Origin: a virus | Length of the DNA stretch: 24,608 nucleotides | Virus record (IMG/VR): IMGVR_UViG_3300045411_000234 | Span: 1-24,608 of that record | Strand: one strand, 5' to 3' | Part shown: positions 3,080 to 22,034 of the stretch, in pieces | Layout of the letters: each line of letters opens with the position of its first letter | Numbering within the stretch: the first letter of the stretch is position 1 | Notes under the pieces: model-generated | Database searches by the model: none | What the model was told of the DNA's origin: nothing | Seen by the model: the letters and a program-made list of their open reading frames with translations, nothing else | Position numbers and translations under genes: made by a program

Positions 3080-3321
3080 TTCGCCGTAGACGTGGGCGGG
3101 CGCTCGTCGAGTAGAATGGCCGGAACGCGAAGGCAACACTCCAGGCCCTGAATGAATCCGCGGACCCGGTCTGTCTCCTGCGGGGTGATGTTGTCCAAAA
3201 GTTCCCGAAACTTGCGTTCCCGCATCTGTCGAATCCTGCCGACCACGAGATCCCAGCCCTCGCTGGCGAGCAACCGAACGAGCTCGTCCCGCTCGTGCTG
3301 CTTGTCGGCTTCGCCGCTCAA
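3076..3321 (-). CDS. Small helical phage protein of unknown function
   Basis: The product is 81 residues, mostly charged helices (ERDELVRLLASEGWDLVVGR) and no cysteine pairs or membrane segment. Short proteins of this kind, with an EGW..L motif and a later TPQE..RVRGFIQGL, occur between portal and capsid genes in other phages, but I know no assigned role. The start is TTG at 3321, which overlaps the upstream stop as TTGA, with AGAGGAAAGC upstream. The ATGA junction at its end couples it to the zinc-ribbon gene. Confidence 0.65.
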   Translation of the reverse strand: MSGEADKQHERDELVRLLASEGWDLVVGRIRQMRERKFRELLDNITPQETDRVRGFIQGLECCLRVPAILLDERPPTSTAK

Positions 3322-5703: not shown

Positions 5704-8490
5704 TCACCTACCAAATTGCCCCCGCTTACAGCCGGTTCGCCCATAACGGACGATTGGCTGCGTGCGTTTGGGCGGAACCACCCTCGGGGTGGCCTCCAGC
5801 CCAACCACTGCGAGCGCCAGGGCGATCACGCAGTCGTCATGGCATCCGGTCTGGTGCTCGACACGCCCGTTGGCCTTGTAGACAAACGTGTGGAGCTCCT
5901 GCTGGGTCACGGCATCATGCAGGAACACCGAGTTGTCGAACAGGGCGCGCTCCAGGCCGGAAATCAACTGCTGCCGGGCAATCGTGGTGGTCTTGAAGCC
6001 GACGTGCTGGAGCGAAGGCAGGGCGCGTTCATCGGCCAGCCTGTGCCGCACGTAGACCTTGCCGATGGGGTATTGGAACCGCAGGATTTCCTGTACCAGC
6101 GACGGGTCCACGGCTTCAGGTACAACGAAAGCCCAGTTGTACCATTCGGCGAGCGCGCAGACGTACTCCCCGAAGACCGTCGGGGTGAATCGCTCGCGCA
6201 CGACCGCCACCTGTTCGCCGGTGTCGGCGTCGAGTACGCACGCAACCGAGAAGTCCGGGTCCGAAGTCCCAGTCTCCTCGCCCACGTCGATACCCTGCGA
6301 CGGGTCCGCACCCAGGACGTAGCCGTGCCCCTCCGCTGGCCTCTTGAAGAGCCGCATGGCCCCCAAGCCATCAGCCCGCGGCCCGAACACCGGAATCTCA
6401 CGCACCCCGATGCGCTGCCGGGTCAACTCGCCCACCAGCGGCTCCCGGATGATCGGCTGGCGCGCAAGCACAGACAGGTCGAACCGGGGCCGCCCGGAGG
6501 TGATGAACGCTTCCTCGGGCGTGTTGTGGGTCAGGATTCCGTTGGCCGAGAAGACGTGATCCGGCTCGACCGTGAGATCGTAGGTAACCTCCGGCCCCTG
6601 CATCTCAACCGAGAGAACCACGTCGGTGAGACTGTTCTCCTGCGGTCGCCTGCCAATGGCCCGTTCAACTGGCCGCAGGGCCGTCTTTCGGCGGCCAACA
6701 AACCCGATCTCGTCATGGAAGAGCCTGCTTGCGACAACGCCAAGCTCCAACGAGTAGAACTGGTAGACTTGGCCGCCGCCCGCCTTTTTGGGCTGGCTGA
6801 AGATCGCCGAGTTGATACCAAAGCCGAGGAGTAGGAGTTGGATATCTCGAATGAAATCCAGTTTTGCGGAGCCAAAGCGGACCCTCCCGCCCGATGCGGA
6901 GCCGTCGCACTCGAACAGCGCCCGGAGGAAGCTCCTCACGACATTACGGGGAGACCGGAAGACGCATTCTGGCACGTGGACCCGTCGTTTCCAAGAACCT
7001 TCGCCGCCGTCGTTGCGATAAAGTAAGCCCAGTTCCCGCAATGTCTCTCGCGCGCGTCTCGATCCCAGGCGAAGCTCCACCGCGCCTTTCCGTCCCTGGA
7101 CCCGCCGGATGGTGCGGCGGCGCGGGGGGCCAATCAACCGACCGAGCAAGGATTCGACATCGGCCACGACATCGGGATCTTTCCCGTCACAAACCACAGA
7201 AAGGGTGTCCTTGTGCCAACTGCCATCGCCCATGAAGTAACCGAGAAACGCCCCCCAGTCTTCGTTGATTGTCACGCGGGTTTCGGCTCCAGGGATGGGC
7301 CGCCAGCGTTGAACGTGCATCTGTTCAGCGAAGCGCGGCGGGCGAAGAAGCACTGTCTGGCCGGGCTGTAGGCGCGAAAGAAAGACAAATCCGCTGGGCG
7401 TGGCAACGGGGTGGTCAAAGGTTCCCCGGATGATTCGGCCCGCTCGCGTGGTGAGTTTATAGACCGTAGCCACCGGCTGGGGCCCCCAGGCTCTCACGGC
7501 ACCAGACTCGGTATCGCGCGCTCCCGCCGCCTCGCCGATGGGGATGATTCCCAACTCGGTGGATACCCGTGTTTCAGCAGTGAGGCAAGCCGGATACTCC
7601 TGGTGGAACCGGGTGGTGCTGCCTTCGCACTTGTTGGCGATGGCCCACCGGCGCCAGTGCAACTGCTCCAGGGTCAGGTTGTGGAGCTTTTGAAGGTCGC
7701 CCTCCTCGCGCGTCAGTGTGTCCTGGAAGCGCGACGCCTCCAGCGGGTCTGAGAAGGCCCGCTGGTACTCGTGGTGCTCCCACCAAGCGAAGAACACCGC
7801 CACCCAGTCGGTTGACCCCTCGACCGTGCGCCGCCAGAGGTCGTAGAACGGCCCACCCACTCCGTTCGCCGTGCTGAGCACGATGATCGTGGTGTCCGGG
7901 TCTTCGGGCACGCACTGGAGCACGCCGGTGGAAAGCGACGGGGCATCCCGGTAGAAGGCGTACTCGTCGAGAACGAGATGCCGGATCGAGGTAGACCGCC
8001 CCACGTCCACGTTTCCCGCGGTGGCGGTCTGAATGTAGCTGCCCCCCGGCTGCGCCCCAAACTCCAGCCGGCCGGGACTCGACTGGCTGGGTTTCAACTT
8101 CCGGGTGGTGGGAACCTTCTGGATTTCGCCCCGGTAGGACTGATCGAACCCGTCGTAGTACCCGAAGATGTCCTGGCAGGACGAGTGAACGTGGGCGAAA
8201 ACCCAACTTGACTGCCCCGGCAGGAAAGCGGTCTTGCGGAACAGGTAGGCGCTGGCGAGCGCCGACCACCCAACGCGCCGCGATTTCAGCCCAACGACTC
8301 GGACAGGCTTGCCGGCCTGCTCCTGTTTGCGGATGGCCGCCGCCAGTTTCGCCTGGCTGGGCCACCAGTTCATCGCAGTGGTGGTCCCGTCCTTGTGGCG
8401 AATGTCAAGACCTCGGCAGAACGCCTCAAGGTCCGAGAACTTGCGCGCCATGCGCGCGGCTTCGGCAGGGGTTAGGGGTTCAATGGGCAC
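5704..8490 (-). CDS. terL: Large terminase subunit containing an intein
   Basis: This is the ATP-driven DNA packaging motor and nuclease. The precursor is 928 residues: extein 1-301 and 657-928 (573 residues after splicing, normal for TerL) with an intein at 302-656. Motor-domain landmarks are a Walker-A-like GLKSRRVGWS (about 67-76), Walker B HLVLDEYAF (171-179) and coupling motif VLSTANG (204-210). The RNase-H-like nuclease shows YVLGADPSQG (D729), PEAVD (around 791) and CHDDCVIALALA (D885, D886). The join restores the conserved QEYPATPEEAF. The start is GTG at 8490; a stop codon lies directly upstream and no good ribosome binding site is seen. It follows tRNA-His and precedes the portal. 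Confidence 0.93.
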   Translation of the reverse strand: MPIEPLTPAEAARMARKFSDLEAFCRGLDIRHKDGTTTAMNWWPSQAKLAAAIRKQEQAGKPVRVVGLKSRRVGWSALASAYLFRKTAFLPGQSSWVFAHVHSSCQDIFGYYDGFDQSYRGEIQKVPTTRKLKPSQSSPGRLEFGAQPGGSYIQTATAGNVDVGRSTSIRHLVLDEYAFYRDAPSLSTGVLQCVPEDPDTTIIVLSTANGVGGPFYDLWRRTVEGSTDWVAVFFAWWEHHEYQRAFSDPLEASRFQDTLTREEGDLQKLHNLTLEQLHWRRWAIANKCEGSTTRFHQEYPACLTAETRVSTELGIIPIGEAAGARDTESGAVRAWGPQPVATVYKLTTRAGRIIRGTFDHPVATPSGFVFLSRLQPGQTVLLRPPRFAEQMHVQRWRPIPGAETRVTINEDWGAFLGYFMGDGSWHKDTLSVVCDGKDPDVVADVESLLGRLIGPPRRRTIRRVQGRKGAVELRLGSRRARETLRELGLLYRNDGGEGSWKRRVHVPECVFRSPRNVVRSFLRALFECDGSASGGRVRFGSAKLDFIRDIQLLLLGFGINSAIFSQPKKAGGGQVYQFYSLELGVVASRLFHDEIGFVGRRKTALRPVERAIGRRPQENSLTDVVLSVEMQGPEVTYDLTVEPDHVFSANGILTHNTPEEAFITSGRPRFDLSVLARQPIIREPLVGELTRQRIGVREIPVFGPRADGLGAMRLFKRPAEGHGYVLGADPSQGIDVGEETGTSDPDFSVACVLDADTGEQVAVVRERFTPTVFGEYVCALAEWYNWAFVVPEAVDPSLVQEILRFQYPIGKVYVRHRLADERALPSLQHVGFKTTTIARQQLISGLERALFDNSVFLHDAVTQQELHTFVYKANGRVEHQTGCHDDCVIALALAVVGLEATPRVVPPKRTQPIVRYGRTGCKRGQFGR
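6523..7587 (-). other. In-frame intein with LAGLIDADG homing endonuclease
   Basis: The 355-residue insert has the features of a bifunctional intein. It begins with Cys (residue 302 of the precursor), has block B GTFDHPV with T357 and H360, and ends with block F YDLTVEPDHVFSANG and the terminal His-Asn (655-656) before Thr657, the +1 nucleophile. Between the splicing blocks are two LAGLIDADG helices, GAFLGYFMGDGSW (D422) and RSFLRALFECDGSA (D529), both keeping the metal-binding Asp. All key splicing residues are present, so it should be active. It interrupts the conserved TerL motif between the motor and nuclease domains, a site under strong constraint. Confidence 0.95.
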
Positions 8491-11636: not shown

Positions 11637-12517
11637 TGCAGTCCACCTTCTTGCCCACCGGCCCGGCGGAGATCCCTCTGGGCCTGCCTCGTGGAAATAT
11701 GCAGGTTCTCTGCGATCTGTCTCCGCGTCAATCCCCGCTGGCGCAACTCCCAGACGAGGTTCTTTCGCTCCGCCAGTGTTGTGAAGCGTCCCCTCGGGCA
11801 CGGTTTCCCGGATCGGGGAATCACAAGCCTGGCCTTAACGCAATCGGGGCAACGGACCCTTGGGTTACCCCGATTCACCTTAAACCCGTTGCCGCAAAAT
11901 CCACAAGTGCGGGTCGTGCATGCGGCGACATGCTGAGACCAGGCGTTCTTTATGCACGTCATGGAGATTTTCTCCCTGGTTGGCCTCGGCAGGGGTACGA
12001 GTGCCCGGAGCAAGGCCACACGTTCCCAGCCATTGTCTGGACCACCTTTCCGTCTCCGATCACCAAAGTTTCGGATGTCGGCGTTTTCTCTCATCCGCTC
12101 TCGAATCTTCTCTGGAACGCATCGTGCGCCACACTCCAAGCCCATCAACAGGTTCCGTTCGAGGTGTCCCATGTTTCTCGTGCTAAGGCCGTGACGGAGG
12201 AAGTGCGCTCCAATGGTTTTGAGGACTTCTCCACACACGGAGCAGGTAATCGCGCCTTTATCTACGACGATCAGTGGCTTGCCTTCTGCGCGCAGGCTCC
12301 TCACCCTCTCCTCACTCCAACGCAACGCACAGTGGCGAGTGCAAAAGATTGCGGAATTGCGACCGGGTCGCAACTCCGAGGGCCGGACACTGAACGTCTT
12401 GCCGCAGTTCGGGCACACGAGCGAAACAGACCGCTTGGACGCCTCGTACTTACAGGCATAACTACAATACCGACCATCTCGCTTGAGTGGGCCACCGCAG
12501 TGTTGGCAAGTTCTCAT
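11633..12517 (-). CDS. Four-zinc-module HTH protein, probable transcription regulator
   Basis: The 294-residue product has four Cys/His modules: C4-C7-C18-C22; C35-C38-C59-C63; a Ros-like C92-C95-H105-H109; and C205-C208-C223-C226. A helix-turn-helix follows at about 257-284 (LRQRGLTRRQIAENLHISTR). The zinc modules and HTH point to DNA binding. It overlaps the sigma factor gene upstream as ATGA and the methyltransferase gene downstream as ATGA. Translational coupling to a sigma factor suggests it acts with it, perhaps as a late activator; this is inference. A homing-endonuclease relative without its nuclease domain is an alternative. Confidence 0.7.
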   Translation of the reverse strand: MRTCQHCGGPLKRDGRYCSYACKYEASKRSVSLVCPNCGKTFSVRPSELRPGRNSAIFCTRHCALRWSEERVRSLRAEGKPLIVVDKGAITCSVCGEVLKTIGAHFLRHGLSTRNMGHLERNLLMGLECGARCVPEKIRERMRENADIRNFGDRRRKGGPDNGWERVALLRALVPLPRPTREKISMTCIKNAWSQHVAACTTRTCGFCGNGFKVNRGNPRVRCPDCVKARLVIPRSGKPCPRGRFTTLAERKNLVWELRQRGLTRRQIAENLHISTRQAQRDLRRAGGQEGGLQ

Positions 12518-13059
12518 GCCGTCTTCAACCTCTTCCTCATCTCCTCCATGGCCTCTTCCTTCAGGGAGTAGACCTCCCGCCGCCCCATCCGCTTGGCGCA
12601 CTCGGTAAGTGGCAACCCGTCCAGGTAGTGCATCTCCAGCACGCGTCGGTGGGCCGTGCGCATACAAGCCATGACCCGCAACACGCGACTAACCGCCTCC
12701 CTGTGCTCTGCACAAAAGTGGGGGTCGCTCCAAGATCCAGCCTCCATTTCCACGGTTTCGTCTATGCGGTCGTTGTCCCCGCAGGTGAGCATGGTCGCGT
12801 TTTTGTATTCCGACCGCCTCACGCTCATCAGGCAGGCCCCGCGCACGGCGGCCAGGGCGAAGCCTTGGAACGGAACACCCCTACTAGCGTTGTAGAGGCC
12901 CGTCTGCTTCCAAAGTTCCGCCCCAGCAACCTGTTCGAGGTCATCCACCTCGAACGAGGGCGGCAGGCGCTTTGCTACCGCCCGGGCAATACTGCGCGCC
13001 CACGGCGCGTGCTCCTCGAAGAGCTTGAGTCGGGCGCGGCGGGTGGGACCGAGGATCAC
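12514..13059 (-). CDS. Phage-encoded sigma-70-family RNA polymerase sigma factor
   Basis: The 181-residue protein has sigma region 2 at about 11-82 (FEEHAPWARSIARAV, then VDDLEQVAGAELWKQTGLYN, then FQGFALAAVRGACLMSVRRS) and region 4 at about 120-178 (AHRRVLEMHYLDGLPLTECA, ending KEEAMEEMRKRL). It would direct host RNA polymerase to phage promoters, probably the late ones. It lacks region 1.1 and a full region 3, like group 3/4 or FliA-like small factors. The GTG at 13059 has GGAGG eight bases upstream and overlaps a micro-ORF as GTGA. The next gene is a zinc/HTH regulator, ATGA-coupled. Confidence 0.87.
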   Translation of the reverse strand: MILGPTRRARLKLFEEHAPWARSIARAVAKRLPPSFEVDDLEQVAGAELWKQTGLYNASRGVPFQGFALAAVRGACLMSVRRSEYKNATMLTCGDNDRIDETVEMEAGSWSDPHFCAEHREAVSRVLRVMACMRTAHRRVLEMHYLDGLPLTECAKRMGRREVYSLKEEAMEEMRKRLKTA

Positions 13060-15151: not shown

Positions 15152-15238
15152 AGACAGACAGAGGCAGTGGTACAGACCAGAGGCAAGAGAAGTGAAGACA
15201 GACAGAGGCAGAGTGCACACCAGGGGCAGGTGAAGTGA
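15152..15238. repeat. Tandem duplication of a 44-bp purine-rich unit
   Basis: Unit 1 (15152-15195) and unit 2 (15196-15238) both begin with the identical 16 bases AGACAGACAGAGGCAG and both end in GAAGTGA; the middles are similar (ACCAGAGGCAAGAG versus ACCAGGGGCAGGT). The period of 43-44 bp equals about four helical turns, so both copies face the same side of the DNA, as expected for protein-binding iterons. Confidence 0.7.
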
Positions 15239-17248: not shown

Positions 17249-17468
17249 GGCACCCACACGCCGCGAGACCGCTATCACCATCCAGGGCCGGCCCCTGCTC
17301 ATCGAGGCCGGCCCGCGCCTCTTGACCCTGCGGCTCAAAGGCAGGCGCTACCGCTACGAGATAGCTTGGGAGTCCGTCTGGCTGCGCGCCGCGGAACTTG
17401 AGGGGCGCCGCCGCATCGAGGAACGCCGCAAGAAGCGTGCGGAACGCCGACGCCTAGCCCGGCCCTAA
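17229..17468 (+). CDS. Small basic phage protein
   Basis: The 79-residue product has a beta-rich centre (ITIQGRPLLIEAGPRLLTLR, then RYRYEIAWESVWLRAAELEG) and a very basic C-terminal helix (RRIEERRKKRAERRRLARP). The WESVxxxAAxLE..RR pattern is one I recognise from short phage proteins of unknown role. GAGG precedes the ATG at 17229. Its last 15 bases overlap the end of a convergent minus-strand gene, and a CGGCACC/GGTGCCG hairpin lies just beyond, without a T-run. Confidence 0.7.
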   Translation: MTALKAEAPTRRETAITIQGRPLLIEAGPRLLTLRLKGRRYRYEIAWESVWLRAAELEGRRRIEERRKKRAERRRLARP

Positions 17469-17825
17469 CCGGCACCCACACGGTGCCGCGAAATCCGCCT
17501 GGTACCCGCCCACACCTGCGACCTGCACCAACCTGCCCACGGTCACGAACCCGGAACCGCCACAGATGGAGCATGACCCTTGGGCTGCCCGGATGCTGAC
17601 TGGTCGCGTCCGGTCGATAACCTCGAGCAGCTCGACGGGCTTCGGGGTCTGAGTAAGCCTCTCCAAACAGTGCCCCACCACCGCCCTCACGTGCTCCACG
17701 TGGGCACACCGAGTAGCCAGCACGTCCACCAGCTCTCTTACCGCCTCCGGCTCCTGTGGGAAGAAGTCCAGGCCAGCCATCCGCTTGACCTCGGCCTTGA
17801 CCTCGCCGAACGGCAACGGGGCCAT
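17454..17825 (-). CDS. Zinc-binding hypothetical protein downstream of DUF1376
   Basis: The 123-residue product is mainly helical (FGEVKAEVKRMAGLDFFPQE, later ELVDVLATRCAHVEHVRAVV) and ends in a metal-site-like region, CSICGGSGFV...PCGC, similar to the CxxCxGxG of DnaJ-type zinc domains. ATG at 17825 shares its A with the stop of the DUF1376 gene (TAATG). This arrangement recalls helper proteins encoded beside phage replication initiators, such as helicase-loader-type genes, but I cannot show that function. Confidence 0.6.
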   Translation of the reverse strand: MAPLPFGEVKAEVKRMAGLDFFPQEPEAVRELVDVLATRCAHVEHVRAVVGHCLERLTQTPKPVELLEVIDRTRPVSIRAAQGSCSICGGSGFVTVGRLVQVAGVGGYQADFAAPCGCRLGPG

Positions 17826-18646
17826 TACACCTGCTCCCATAGCGCCTCCCGCTTGCTCTTGACTGCTTGCCTTACCTTACGCTCCCACATCCACCGCCCC
17901 AGGTAGTTCTTGGGCAGAGACGCTAACTCCGGACTGTCAGCACGTCCAGCCCTAGCCTGGATGCCAACACGCGCCGCTTGCCGTTGATCCCAGTCCAAAC
18001 GCCGCCACTCCAGCAGCGCCTCATCCCAATCCGGCCCGCTGCCGCTCATCCCAGCGGCTTCGGCTTCCCGCCTGAATACCTCGAAACTCGCGGCGGCATC
18101 GTCCCCTGGGGGCGGTTTGTTTTCCACAAGAGAGGGGGTAGGGGGAGAGTTCTCTTCTGTAGCTGAAGCTACAGCTGAAGCTGAAGGCTTAAGCTGAGCT
18201 TGAGCTGAGCTTGAGCTGAGCTTAAGCTGAGCTTGAGCTGAGCTTGAGCTGAGCTTAAGCTGAGCTTCACACTCCTCCCCGCTCGCCTGATGCTCCGCCG
18301 CCCTCCGCACCCGCTCTAGCCCGCCCCGTCTCCCCGCCTCCGCTCGCTCCGCCGCATAGTCCAGCCAATCGTCACGCGCCCTCAGTAGCCGCTCATTGAA
18401 TAGGCGCCCGCCCTCTGCCCGGAACTGCCCCCGCAGCTTCGCCCCGCTACCACGCGCCCACGCTCCCTTTAACCGAGACAACCGCGCCAACACCGCGTCA
18501 TCGTCCGGTAGCCCGCAGTCAGGCTCCAGCCAGGCCAGTGCCAGGAGCCGGATGTACGCGCCCTCTTCCGCCGGCGTCATCAGCGAGATAGAGGCCGAGC
18601 TCAGCCAGTCCTGGGGGTAGAACTGGAACGCCGGAAGCCTCTTCAT
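17825..18646 (-). CDS. DUF1376-family phage replication protein with internal iteron-like repeats
   Basis: The 273-residue protein opens with MKRLPAFQFYPQDWLSSASI followed by TPAEEGAYIRLLALAW and LPDDDAVLARLSRL, the DUF1376 signature found in phage replication or primosome-type genes. The N-terminal domain is about 1-110. A low-complexity linker holds a threefold 11-residue repeat (core QLKLSSSSAQA), encoded by seven tandem 11-bp repeats. The C-terminal part (about 185-273) has helices ending LGRWMWERKVRQAVKSKREA. It overlaps the preceding gene as ATGA. The layout suggests initiator plus origin, as in lambda O; that role is inferred. Confidence 0.82.
   Translation of the reverse strand: MKRLPAFQFYPQDWLSSASISLMTPAEEGAYIRLLALAWLEPDCGLPDDDAVLARLSRLKGAWARGSGAKLRGQFRAEGGRLFNERLLRARDDWLDYAAERAEAGRRGGLERVRRAAEHQASGEECEAQLKLSSSSAQAQLKLSSSSAQAQLKPSASAVASATEENSPPTPSLVENKPPPGDDAAASFEVFRREAEAAGMSGSGPDWDEALLEWRRLDWDQRQAARVGIQARAGRADSPELASLPKNYLGRWMWERKVRQAVKSKREALWEQV
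18188..18264. repeat. Seven tandem 11-bp repeats, iteron-like
   Basis: The plus strand reads CTTRAGCTGAG seven times without a gap: R is A, G, G, A, G, G, A in order, so a 33-bp super-unit repeats. The period of 11 bp places each copy on the same face of the helix. Related AGCTGAAGCT copies, including the palindrome GTAGCTGAAGCTAC, lie just left (18159-18187). The array sits inside the replication gene, so it could be the phage origin. Confidence 0.85.
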
Positions 18647-18855
18647 CGCGCCTTCACCCGCTTGACCCGCTCCAGCCTGTTCAATCGGCGCGCGTCTTTT
18701 TCGCACTGCCGCCCCGCCTCATCGCCGCACTCTTCCACCCACTTCCGCAGCGCTCTGTCCAGCGGCCTAGGTAACTTGACCCGGCAGTCCCGATACGCCC
18801 ACATGAGTTCAATGCACGCCGCCCAGTACTCACACTCGCCGCACTTGGCTCTCAC
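18643..18855 (-). CDS. Small Cys-containing protein
   Basis: The 70-residue product begins VRAKCGECEYWAACIELMWA with C-x2-C-x6-C, a spacing that could bind zinc or a cluster, and continues as charged helices to a very basic end (RRLNRLERVKRVKAR). GTG at 18855 overlaps the VRR-NUC stop as GTGA with GAGG upstream. It is coupled to the DUF1376 gene as ATGA. Function unknown. Confidence 0.6.
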   Translation of the reverse strand: MRAKCGECEYWAACIELMWAYRDCRVKLPRPLDRALRKWVEECGDEAGRQCEKDARRLNRLERVKRVKAR

Positions 18856-19268: not shown

Positions 19269-19406
19269 TCAACTCCTGTACCACAGCTTCGCTCCGGCAA
19301 AGCGCTTATCCTCGCCGCCGAACAGCACCTGCCATACGACGCCCAGCCACACCACCGCGTTGATGGCGAGATACACCACCAACAGCACCTCTCCCACTAT
19401 GCGCAT
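19269..19406 (-). CDS. 45-residue single-helix membrane protein
   Basis: The peptide has a clear hydrophobic segment, EVLLVVYLAINAVVWLGVVW, followed by a charged tail (GGEDKRFAGAKLWYRS). This suggests one transmembrane helix with the C-terminus probably in the cytoplasm. GGAGGA lies just before the ATG at 19406, and it overlaps the DnaA-like gene by 10 bases. A holin, a membrane anchor for replication, or a superinfection factor are all possible; none is shown. Confidence 0.6.
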   Translation of the reverse strand: MRIVGEVLLVVYLAINAVVWLGVVWQVLFGGEDKRFAGAKLWYRS

Positions 19407-19828
19407 TGCTCCTCCGCGCTCTCGATGGCCCGCGCTACGGTTGTATGCTGGCCCAAGCCGAACAGCCGGGCCAGCATCGAGAACGTGTACCCGTAGCGGC
19501 GGTACACCGTCCGCAGCGCCATGTTGCGCGCCCTCAGCAGCTCACGAGGAGCCGTCTTGTGCTGCTTCCCGTAGAGCGCCTTCTCGGGCACACCGTAGCG
19601 GGCGGCTATCTCGCGCACCACCGCCGCTACTCGCTCCCGGCCAGCGCCGTTCACCACGTCTGTCGCCCTCATCCGGTCCCGCACTTGCTCGATACGTCGG
19701 GCGGTGGCCGAGTCAATCCCGCTCACGTCAGCCTCGACGATCTGAGTAACGACCCGCTCGAGGTCCGCTACCCGCTGGCGAAGCATCCAGAACTCCCGAT
19801 CGACCCACTCTTTCGCTTCAGGTGACAT
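19397..19828 (-). CDS. DnaA domain-IV-like DNA-binding protein
   Basis: The 143-residue product has an N-terminal coiled helix (WVDREFWMLRQRVADLERVV) and a C-terminal region (about 65-138) matching DnaA domain IV: VAAVVREIAARYGVPEKALY, RARNMALRTVYRRYGYTFSM, and the signature LFGLGQHTTVARAIE, which in DnaA contacts the DnaA box. There is no AAA ATPase domain. It may bind DnaA-box-like sites at the phage origin or act as an autoregulator. ATG at 19828 overlaps the Gp157 gene by 11 bases. Confidence 0.82.
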   Translation of the reverse strand: MSPEAKEWVDREFWMLRQRVADLERVVTQIVEADVSGIDSATARRIEQVRDRMRATDVVNGAGRERVAAVVREIAARYGVPEKALYGKQHKTAPRELLRARNMALRTVYRRYGYTFSMLARLFGLGQHTTVARAIESAEEQCA

Positions 19829-20441: not shown

Positions 20442-20602
20442 TCGGGGGCCTCCAGTTTTTCCGCCAAGCGCTCTAAGGCACGGGCTGGAGTCCTGCCCCG
20501 AGCGCTCACACCCTCCTCTGTGTAGGCACACCAGTCCTGGGCGCGGCTCCGGATCGGTGGCGGGTCGTACTCCACCTTGACGATGATTGTGGATGTGCTC
20601 AC
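20438..20602 (-). CDS. 54-residue hypothetical protein between RecA-like and Gp157 genes
   Basis: The product reads VSTSTIIVKVEYDPPPIRSR and continues with WCAYTEEGVSARGRTPARAL and a short amphipathic helix. This small beta-plus-helix shape with W..Y..G..A.G.T...A is typical of small phage/bacterial proteins of the HicB-like half-fold, but no firm family is claimed. GTG at 20602 overlaps the upstream stop as GTGA, and its stop overlaps the next ATG as ATGA. Confidence 0.6.
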   Translation of the reverse strand: MSTSTIIVKVEYDPPPIRSRAQDWCAYTEEGVSARGRTPARALERLAEKLEAPE

Positions 20603-21696
20603 GCCGCACCCCCAATCTCGGGCGGAACGTCATCCTCGGTCGCCTCATAGGGCGGCGGCTCCAGCGCCTTGCGGCACTCGACTAGCGCGAAGTACAACTC
20701 CACCACCACAGCCTTGACCTCGCCGCGCTTGTGGCCCTTCACGTCTGAGGCGTGCCGCATGCCGTGCTTGGCCAGGATCTCGTAGTACAGGGCCTCGGTA
20801 CCCGTGGCCTCCACGATGCCCGCCTTGAGCTCCGCGAACACGTTGAACACGCCCTCCAGCTTGGTCAGCCTCCCCAGCAGCCGCTCCAACTCGGCAGGAA
20901 CCACCTGGGGCTGCACTGCGGGGGCCGGAACGGTGTGCGGAAACTCGGGCTTCGGCCCGTCTCGCCGCTCGCCATCTGGCCCGACGTGGAACTCCTCCGA
21001 CTTCGGCGGCGCCGGGGGCGAACCCTTCCGCAGCCACTGGTACAGCTTCAGGGCGAAATCGCCATCGGGGCGCTTCACAGTCTTGCCGTCGAGCTCGCTG
21101 TACCGCGTCTTCTCGATCGCCATGTTGTGCTCGAGGTCCAAGTACCCTACCAAGTCGTATTCGTACTCGTAGCCAGGCCGGATGACCGGGGCCATGCCGA
21201 CCTTCTTGGGAACCTGCTTGCCGTTTCGGTCCTCCAGCACGTACTCGGTCTTTGCCCGCATCGTGGCGATGATGTGCGCCGAGCTCTTCAACTGCGCATC
21301 CGTGAACGCGCGGTACCTCGGGCTGATCTCCGCCCAAGCGGTGAAACTGTTGCCGCCCCGCGACGCCTTCAGGTCCTTCTGTTCCAGGGACGTTTCCCAA
21401 GCGTGCGTGGAAGAATCCAGCACGATCACCCGATAGCCGGCGCGCTCTGCCGCCCGGATGGCCTCCACGTAAGCGGTCGTATCGGTCTCGGGCAAGCTGA
21501 GCGTGTCGAAGTCGAACTTGTCGGCGTACTTCGACGCCGATCCGTTCTCTGTGTCAATCAGCGCGCACCGCCCACCCTCCTGCGCGGCGATGGCGCAGCC
21601 GATAGCGAGGGCCGTCCACGTCTTACCGCTACCGCTCGGGCCAACCAACCCGAGGCGTAGCAGCGATTGCTCCTTGCTCGCACGTCTGAACTCCAT
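20599..21696 (-). CDS. RecA-like AAA ATPase (AAA_24/Sak4-like)
   Basis: The 365-residue protein has Walker A GPSGSGKT (19-26), a RecA-like core (ALIDTENGSASKYADKFDFD), Walker B VIVLDSS (90-96) and an extended C-terminal part. Phage ATPases of this type are annotated AAA_24 and include Sak4-type proteins that act in single-strand annealing or recombination, often next to Gp157 genes. It probably binds single-stranded DNA or works with the recombination partner. ATG at 21696 overlaps the upstream stop as TGATG. A GTG directly upstream is an alternative. Confidence 0.82.
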   Translation of the reverse strand: MEFRRASKEQSLLRLGLVGPSGSGKTWTALAIGCAIAAQEGGRCALIDTENGSASKYADKFDFDTLSLPETDTTAYVEAIRAAERAGYRVIVLDSSTHAWETSLEQKDLKASRGGNSFTAWAEISPRYRAFTDAQLKSSAHIIATMRAKTEYVLEDRNGKQVPKKVGMAPVIRPGYEYEYDLVGYLDLEHNMAIEKTRYSELDGKTVKRPDGDFALKLYQWLRKGSPPAPPKSEEFHVGPDGERRDGPKPEFPHTVPAPAVQPQVVPAELERLLGRLTKLEGVFNVFAELKAGIVEATGTEALYYEILAKHGMRHASDVKGHKRGEVKAVVVELYFALVECRKALEPPPYEATEDDVPPEIGGAA

Positions 21697-22034
21697 CACG
21701 CACCCCCCCGCGCGAAAACGCGGTCCAGCCCCCACATGAACGCGATCAGGGGCCGCTCGTCCGCTGGAGCTTGTTGGATGGCTGCCACCGCGCGCTCCTG
21801 CGCGGCTTCGTCCACCAGAAGATCCCGGCACGCGGCGCAGTGCGGCTTGCCCTCATGGGTTACCAAGTGCTCCAGGCAGAAGGGCTTGCAGCACAGGTCG
21901 CAACGTCCGGCGCATCGCGCACAGATGTCGCTGCCGCACTCTTCGCACTCCACGGCGTCGTAGGGCCTGTCCCCGCACTGCTCGGCGCACCCTTGGCACC
22001 GCCACGGCGGATCAGTATGTGGTATACTGGACAT
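21696..22034 (-). CDS. Cys-rich treble-clef/B-box-like zinc protein
   Basis: The 112-residue product has a dense Cys/His region (about 13-70): CQGCAEQC, ECEECGSDICARC, CDLCCKPFCLEHLVTHEGKP and HCAAC, enough for three or more zinc sites in a RING/B-box-like arrangement. The C-terminal third is helical. ATG at 22034 has AAAGGAG five bases upstream. It is the first gene of the replication operon and follows a leader with strong hairpins. It may be a DNA-binding or adaptor protein; the function is unknown. Confidence 0.7.
   Translation of the reverse strand: MSSIPHTDPPWRCQGCAEQCGDRPYDAVECEECGSDICARCAGRCDLCCKPFCLEHLVTHEGKPHCAACRDLLVDEAAQERAVAAIQQAPADERPLIAFMWGLDRVFARGGA

Follow-up and report, generated by a model that had tools for sequence, protein, structure and literature searches.

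A phased 11-bp repeat array within a DUF1376 gene as a candidate intragenic replication origin of an uncultivated phage

The locus and its genes

The DNA studied here is a 24,608-bp record of an uncultivated virus (IMG/VR IMGVR_UViG_3300045411_000234), the whole of which is referred to as the window and which may be an incomplete piece of a phage genome. Pfam and PHROG scans found integrase, recombination, replication and terminase genes to be encoded in the record, with no recognisable helicase or helicase loader among its genes. The features of the replication locus are collected in Table 1.

Table 1. Features at and around the DUF1376 gene, with positions in the window
Feature	Position	Strand	Basis
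Unassigned 128-aa gene just downstream of the DUF1376 gene	17454..17840	-	CxxC-type zinc motif; without family match
DUF1376 gene (candidate initiator)	17825..18646	-	PF07120 E=2.1e-9; PHROG 9327 'primosomal protein' E=1.8e-11; AlphaFold2 model
DnaA-box-like 9-mer TTTTCCACA, sole TTWTNCACA of the record	18120..18128	+	0.47 expected in record
C-run pair CCCCCTACCCCC, 3' of the 6-bp tract	18132..18147	-	C-runs in same place in relatives
6-bp-period tract CTTCAGCTTCAGCTGTAGCTTCAGCTACAG (coding strand), immediately 3' to the array within the gene	18157..18186	-	6-bp periodicity
Candidate iteron array of seven 11-bp units without gaps (CTCAGCTYAAG on the coding strand), super-period 33 bp	18187..18267	-	Exact copies and TRF
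DnaA domain-IV-like helix-turn-helix protein	19397..19828	-	Pfam Bac_DnaA_C E=5.6e-6, under curated cut-off
Sak4/RecA-like ATPase, recombination-replication module	20599..21831	-	Pfam AAA_24 E=1e-21; phrog_124 Sak4-like E=2.5e-7

The DUF1376 gene is taken to start at the ATG at 18646, the frame being likewise open from an alternative GTG at 18706, and its product matches PF07120 with 38.1 bits, above the curated cut-off of 30.1. The AlphaFold2 model consists of a confidently predicted N-terminal winged helix (residues ~10-121), a disordered linker (~126-178) spanning the residues that the array encodes, and a C-terminal domain made of helices (184-272). A VIA structure search with this model returned among its top rows the RepA_N domains 4pql, 5kbj, 4pta and 4pt7, of which 5kbj is bound to DNA, although these matches are modest (Z 5.1-5.7, rmsd 3.2-4.7 over 77-84 residues) and other winged helices (ORC) score alike; Foldseek with the full model gave no match below E 0.5. 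The N-terminal domain is thus a predicted winged helix that, on the model, weakly resembles the RepA_N plasmid initiators most. By sequence the protein belongs to neither lambda O nor RepA_N, as the Pfam and PHROG scans give only DUF1376 and 'primosomal protein' with no lambda O family, hmmscan lists DUF1376 only with no match to RepA_N (PF06970), and a profile search of PDB sequences found no RepA_N chain. The product of the 128-aa gene gave a single-sequence fold with a pLDDT of 44, too low in confidence for a structure search, and judged by its position it is possibly a helicase loader.

The array and the adjacent tract

Within the linker-coding part of the candidate initiator gene lie direct repeats, exact copies of CTTRAGCTGAG that start on the + strand at 18188, 18199, 18210, 18221, 18232, 18243 and 18254 and span 18188-18264. 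The ambiguous position reads A, G, G, A, G, G, A through the seven units, which gives an exact 33-bp period, and over 18187-18267 TRF reports period 11 with 7.4 copies (94%) and period 33 with 2.5 copies (100%). At no more than one mismatch the unit has 9 matches against 0.54 expected, a count that none of 100 dinucleotide shuffles reached. The 114-bp repeat region holds 18 of the window's 70 AGCT tetramers, and its GC content of 51% falls in the lowest 1% of 110-bp stretches in a record of 65% GC; the array unit contains the 12-bp perfect palindrome GAGCTTAAGCTC. The encoded peptide is a repeated 11-residue QLKLSSSSAQA, as no step shorter than 33 bp keeps the units in 11-bp phase and in frame at the same time, and the 33-bp super-period is as would be expected if the array grows by duplication under the two constraints of 11 bp (helix) and 3 bp (frame).

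A preliminary description of this DNA had reported seven gap-free copies with a 33-bp super-period in the linker of a DUF1376 protein and had observed that they force a repeated 11-residue linker, all of which is borne out here by the exact matches, TRF and shuffles, by the Pfam match and disordered linker, and by the peptide itself. The extent that it gave, 18159-18267, needs correction, for whilst the array is real its proper start is 18187, since 18157-18186 is a different repeat with a period of 6 bp. This adjoining tract does not consist of the palindromes that had been thought to extend the array, and AGCTGAAGCT, which had been called a palindrome, is not one, only the AGCT cores being palindromic. 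The tract has a GC content of 50%, which is below the 65% background but does not make it AT-rich as such. The GC skew near the array gave no information, because the record is coded mostly on one strand.

Repeats of 11 bp across the DUF1376 family

Relatives were compared by the ungapped self-match of their linker DNA at each lag, a lag-11 segment being counted at a score of at least 9. The controls were 993 flanking segments from the same contigs, mostly coding and hence fair though not perfect, and 950 codon-shuffled linkers. The relatives' loci came partly from similarity searches seeded with the window protein, the held-out set not being so seeded; the nearest relatives found are 41-55% identical to the window protein in the domain.

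The letters AGCTGAG are not common to these relatives, whose linkers carry 11-bp direct repeats in other spellings, such as CAACCACCCTT, CAACGACCGTT, GAACCAAACAC, AGCAATGCTGA and GACGGGGACAG. Repeats with an 11-bp period were found in the linkers of 41 of 118 DUF1376 genes, and 11 is the best lag that is not a multiple of three in 35 of 95 non-redundant linkers. Strong self-matches (score at least 11) lie at lag 11 in 21 of 38 linkers, as against one of the 19 strong matches among the 993 flanks and none at all in the 950 codon-shuffled linkers. With the window excluded a lag-11 segment is present in 33% of 94 genes and in less than 1.5% of flanks, and in the held-out test, on 23 genes from an independent genome draw, the figure is 39%. 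When one gene is counted per N-terminal cluster, 13.5 of 33 carry the lag-11 signal where 1.4 would be expected (p ~3e-10). No array above threshold is present in 68 of the 118 genes, so that either degenerate or differently spaced sites were missed or some genes lack such sites.

The relatives mostly have two or three imperfect units, with neighbours often inverted, and their arrays are found in all three reading frames. As 11 is not a multiple of three, the units are few and all frames are used, a repeat in the protein cannot explain the arrays, and judged from these alignments of DNA to itself a constant 11-bp period with changing unit sequence is the signature of selection on DNA. The periodicity of alpha-helices (~10.8 bp) was considered as a source of the lag-11 signal and rejected, as it is absent from the 993 mostly coding flanks and the linker is disordered.

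An exact search of viral contigs with a 16-mer from the window gave six matches, none of them in a DUF1376 gene and one of them in an initiator-like gene at locus L018, which belongs to Lin1244_N. The octamer AGCTCAGC of the window array has four copies in a distant DUF1376 gene (L091), two of them at 11-bp spacing; they lie at nt 141, 152, 375 and 399 of that gene and are followed by a TCT/TCA tract.

The 6-bp tract and the downstream genes in relatives

A tract with a lag of 6 bp is present in 68% of the relatives' linkers (first set) as against 1.8% of flanking DNA, and the repeats are followed by codon runs such as TCTTCATCTTCA, CCTACACCTACA and GATACAGATACA, in several relatives with zero gap between the last repeat and the tract, as in the window. 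The choice of codons in these runs is restricted; within Ser runs of at least four residues (30 genes) TCT or TCA accounts for 192 of 203 codons, whereas in the rest of these genes the two make up 242 of 564 Ser codons (Fisher p 1e-43). Beyond the tract, C-runs are present in 13 of 73 genes, those of the window and of E. coli ydaU among them, where ~0.06 per gene would be expected. Paired C-runs after the tract were seen in the window, in ydaU (L024) and in L012, L035 and L148, sometimes together with a G-run that might fold into a hairpin.

The gene directly downstream of DUF1376 encodes a DnaB-like helicase in ~12 of 66 relatives and a DnaC-like loader in six. The order regulator, DUF1376, helicase loader is found in named phages and may be compared with cII-O-P in lambda.

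Coupling of the repeats to the N-terminal domain

Relative to chance, array 8-mers are 33 times as frequent in the 255 bp with which the gene begins, which encode the domain; the enrichment is 8-fold in the remaining linker and 0.9- to 1.8-fold elsewhere, these ratios being inflated by the overlap of 8-mers. Fifteen genes have a second phased 11-bp cluster within the domain-coding part which, on the model, coincides in most cases with codons for the recognition helix and wing; the window gene has no such second cluster. The unit of the second cluster is that of the gene's own linker array in L002 (~3180-3214), L026, L037, L070, L073, L008 and others, at nt ~140-240 of the gene.

Similarity between array motifs is correlated with similarity between N-terminal domains (Mantel rho 0.34, 0 of 2000 permutations) and shows no coupling to the C-terminus (rho -0.03). 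Physical linkage on the DNA could partly cause this. Mosaic phages of the Rac type bear on the same point; in phage Rac-SA53 the YdaU N-terminus is kept together with repeats and tract and the C-terminus is DnaT, whilst phages vB_EcoS-666R9 and MN652886 keep the YdaU C-terminus and have another N-terminus with GTTAC-type repeats. The exchange junction in these mosaics falls at the tract and, as read from their sequences, the N-terminal domain and its repeats are swapped as one unit.

Proposed function

The preliminary description had proposed that the array is a phage origin, to be refuted if homologues lacked any repeats. The homologues do not have the AGCTGAG spelling in common, but many of them, though not all, carry an 11-bp-phased linker array, and the proposal gains support from these family-wide arrays, which stand far above flanks and codon-shuffled controls. 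Its comparison with lambda ori is apt in that iterons and a neighbouring tract lie within a gene, and the origin of RepA_N plasmids serves just as well as a model.

We consider it likely that the array is the iteron part of an intragenic origin in the style of lambda O and RepA_N, that it is bound by the DUF1376 domain, and that the duplex is opened, or the helicase loaded, at the 6-bp tract. That the locus works as an origin, with binding, melting and loading of a helicase, is what we infer from features computed here, namely the array and its level above chance, its position in a disordered linker, the family-wide period, the tract codons, the N-terminal coupling and the predicted fold. By analogy, the protein most probably works as the lambda O and RepA_N initiators do. 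The predicted winged-helix domain would bind the 11-bp repeats with one protomer or dimer per turn; a repeat of about one helical turn would place successive protomers on the same side of the helix, stacked upon each other, and the dyad in each unit makes a dimer per unit plausible. The loaded array would then open or expose the adjacent tract, to which the C-terminal domain, perhaps together with the protein encoded by the adjoining gene, would recruit the host helicase, the C-terminus (DnaT in one relative) bringing the loader.

On balance we lean towards extending this to the family, in which case DUF1376 proteins would be initiators of intragenic origins whose one-turn 11-bp iterons co-vary with the winged helix and precede a 6-bp loading tract, some members having iteron copies in the recognition-helix codons. 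If so, the specificity of the protein and its target site would in some members evolve in a single DNA segment, and the origins of many unstudied phages could be read straight from sequence. For DUF1376, a phage domain that is widespread and has no assigned function, the proposal offers a role that can be tested, and it would locate to ~100 bp the origins of many phages, named as well as uncultivated, whilst the constant 11-bp spacing with changing repeats would offer natural pairs of protein and site for the co-evolution of initiator and origin.

Alternative readings

It is possible that the array is an origin and that its binder is the DnaA-domain-IV-like protein or a host protein. The helix-turn-helix protein is encoded ~0.8 kb away, the only DnaA-box-like 9-mer of the record is 28 bp away from the tract, and the Lin1244_N genes L018 and L174 have repeat cores of a similar kind. 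We nonetheless regard this as unlikely, as in mosaic genes the repeat sequence goes with the N-terminus of DUF1376, the array is not built of DnaA boxes, and the 9-mer is not conserved in relatives, two being found in 73 genes where one was expected. The record as a whole has this single TTWTNCACA and no cluster of DnaA boxes. DnaA boxes were also considered as a conserved part of the origin, which the 73 genes do not support.

Slightly less probable still is an operator or other regulatory array, bound by the DUF1376 protein or a phage repressor for control of expression or copy number, with replication starting elsewhere. Winged helices are common in repressors too, and the iterons of plasmids often serve control as well. 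However, the repeats occupy the linker in the middle of the gene rather than its beginning, the 300 bp upstream of the gene show no enrichment of array 8-mers (0.9-fold), a 6-bp tract with restricted codons directly follows the array, and helicases and loaders are often encoded downstream.

We think it very unlikely that the array is a low-complexity linker, made of slippage products that are tolerated or selected as a flexible Ser/Ala/Gln linker or that act as a phase-variation switch, which is conceivable because adding or removing a single 11-bp unit changes the reading frame. The linker is disordered in the model and a super-period of exactly 33 bp in the window suggests that units were recently duplicated in frame, but where a coding constraint acts, slippage would be expected to favour periods divisible by 3, which 11 is not. 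Nor does it fit with the relatives' two or three imperfect units, often with inverted neighbours and in some genes with a second cluster inside the folded domain, or with a codon choice in the tract that is far from the genes' own usage. A cruciform or hairpin signal, in which the palindromic units act as single-strand structure at, for example, a primosome assembly or packaging site, is the least probable of all, for although shuffled versions of the array strand fold less well than the strand itself (z = -6.0) this follows from the palindromic AGCT units, the relatives share the period and no single common hairpin, and the terminase genes are more than 3 kb from the array.

Comparison with known systems

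Intragenic iteron origins are already known from lambdoid phages and RepA_N plasmids, and the DUF1376 version is apparently undescribed; in the open-licence literature, including that on iterons, ydaU and oriJ, we found no paper that ties DUF1376 to a replication origin. In lambda and lambdoid phages iterons and an unwinding region lie in the middle of the initiator gene O (PMC7466680). The DUF1376 loci resemble lambda ori, and the origins of Stx phages, in their intragenic iterons and, in several phages, in the order regulator, initiator, loader. They differ in that lambda O and DUF1376 are separate Pfam families, that the lambda iterons are longer whereas the DUF1376 repeats are 11 bp head to tail, and that a simple A/T block stands beside the iterons of lambda where DUF1376 genes have a 6-bp repeat tract of varying sequence.

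The RepA_N plasmids pSK41 and pTZ2162 have an initiator with a winged-helix N-terminus and an origin central in rep (PMC5703833; PMC7145576), with a linker that is encoded by origin DNA and dispensable as protein (PMC5703833), semi-palindromic direct repeats at the origin (PMC7145576) and modular chimeras such as pPR9 (PMC5703833; PMC7145576). In this layout they are akin to the DUF1376 genes, RepA_N domains being the best structural matches of the model at modest scores, whilst the genes studied here stand apart by their phased 11-bp arrays and their 6-bp tract.

The E. coli Rac prophage, which has been reported to have an active origin, oriJ (PMC3945230), carries the DUF1376 gene ydaU, after which comes ydaV. 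Here GTTCA-type sites occur at 33-bp steps with an inverted GTTTGAAC, followed by GATACAGATAAAGAT and C-runs, although the sites are sparser than in the window and the lag-11 test failed. Outside the DUF1376 family, the Lin1244_N (DUF4373) phage genes L018 and L174 have 11-bp-phased linker repeats (AGCTCAGCTCA and GTTCAACGGAC respectively) and a short-period tract. They belong to another Pfam family and the tract periods are 5, 6 or 12 bp, yet the unit AGCTCAGCTCA of L018 (1491-2261) is the same as in the window array; the Lin1244_N sample of five loci from 148 genomes is too small for statistics.

Other features of the window

Finally, an intein with a LAGLIDADG endonuclease domain lies inside the terminase large subunit gene (5704-8490), and the record encodes a Dam-type N6-adenine methyltransferase (PF05869; 10752-11801) and a Sigma-70-like factor with regions 2 and 4 (12514-13059). 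Two copies of a 43-bp tandem repeat are present at 15152-15238.
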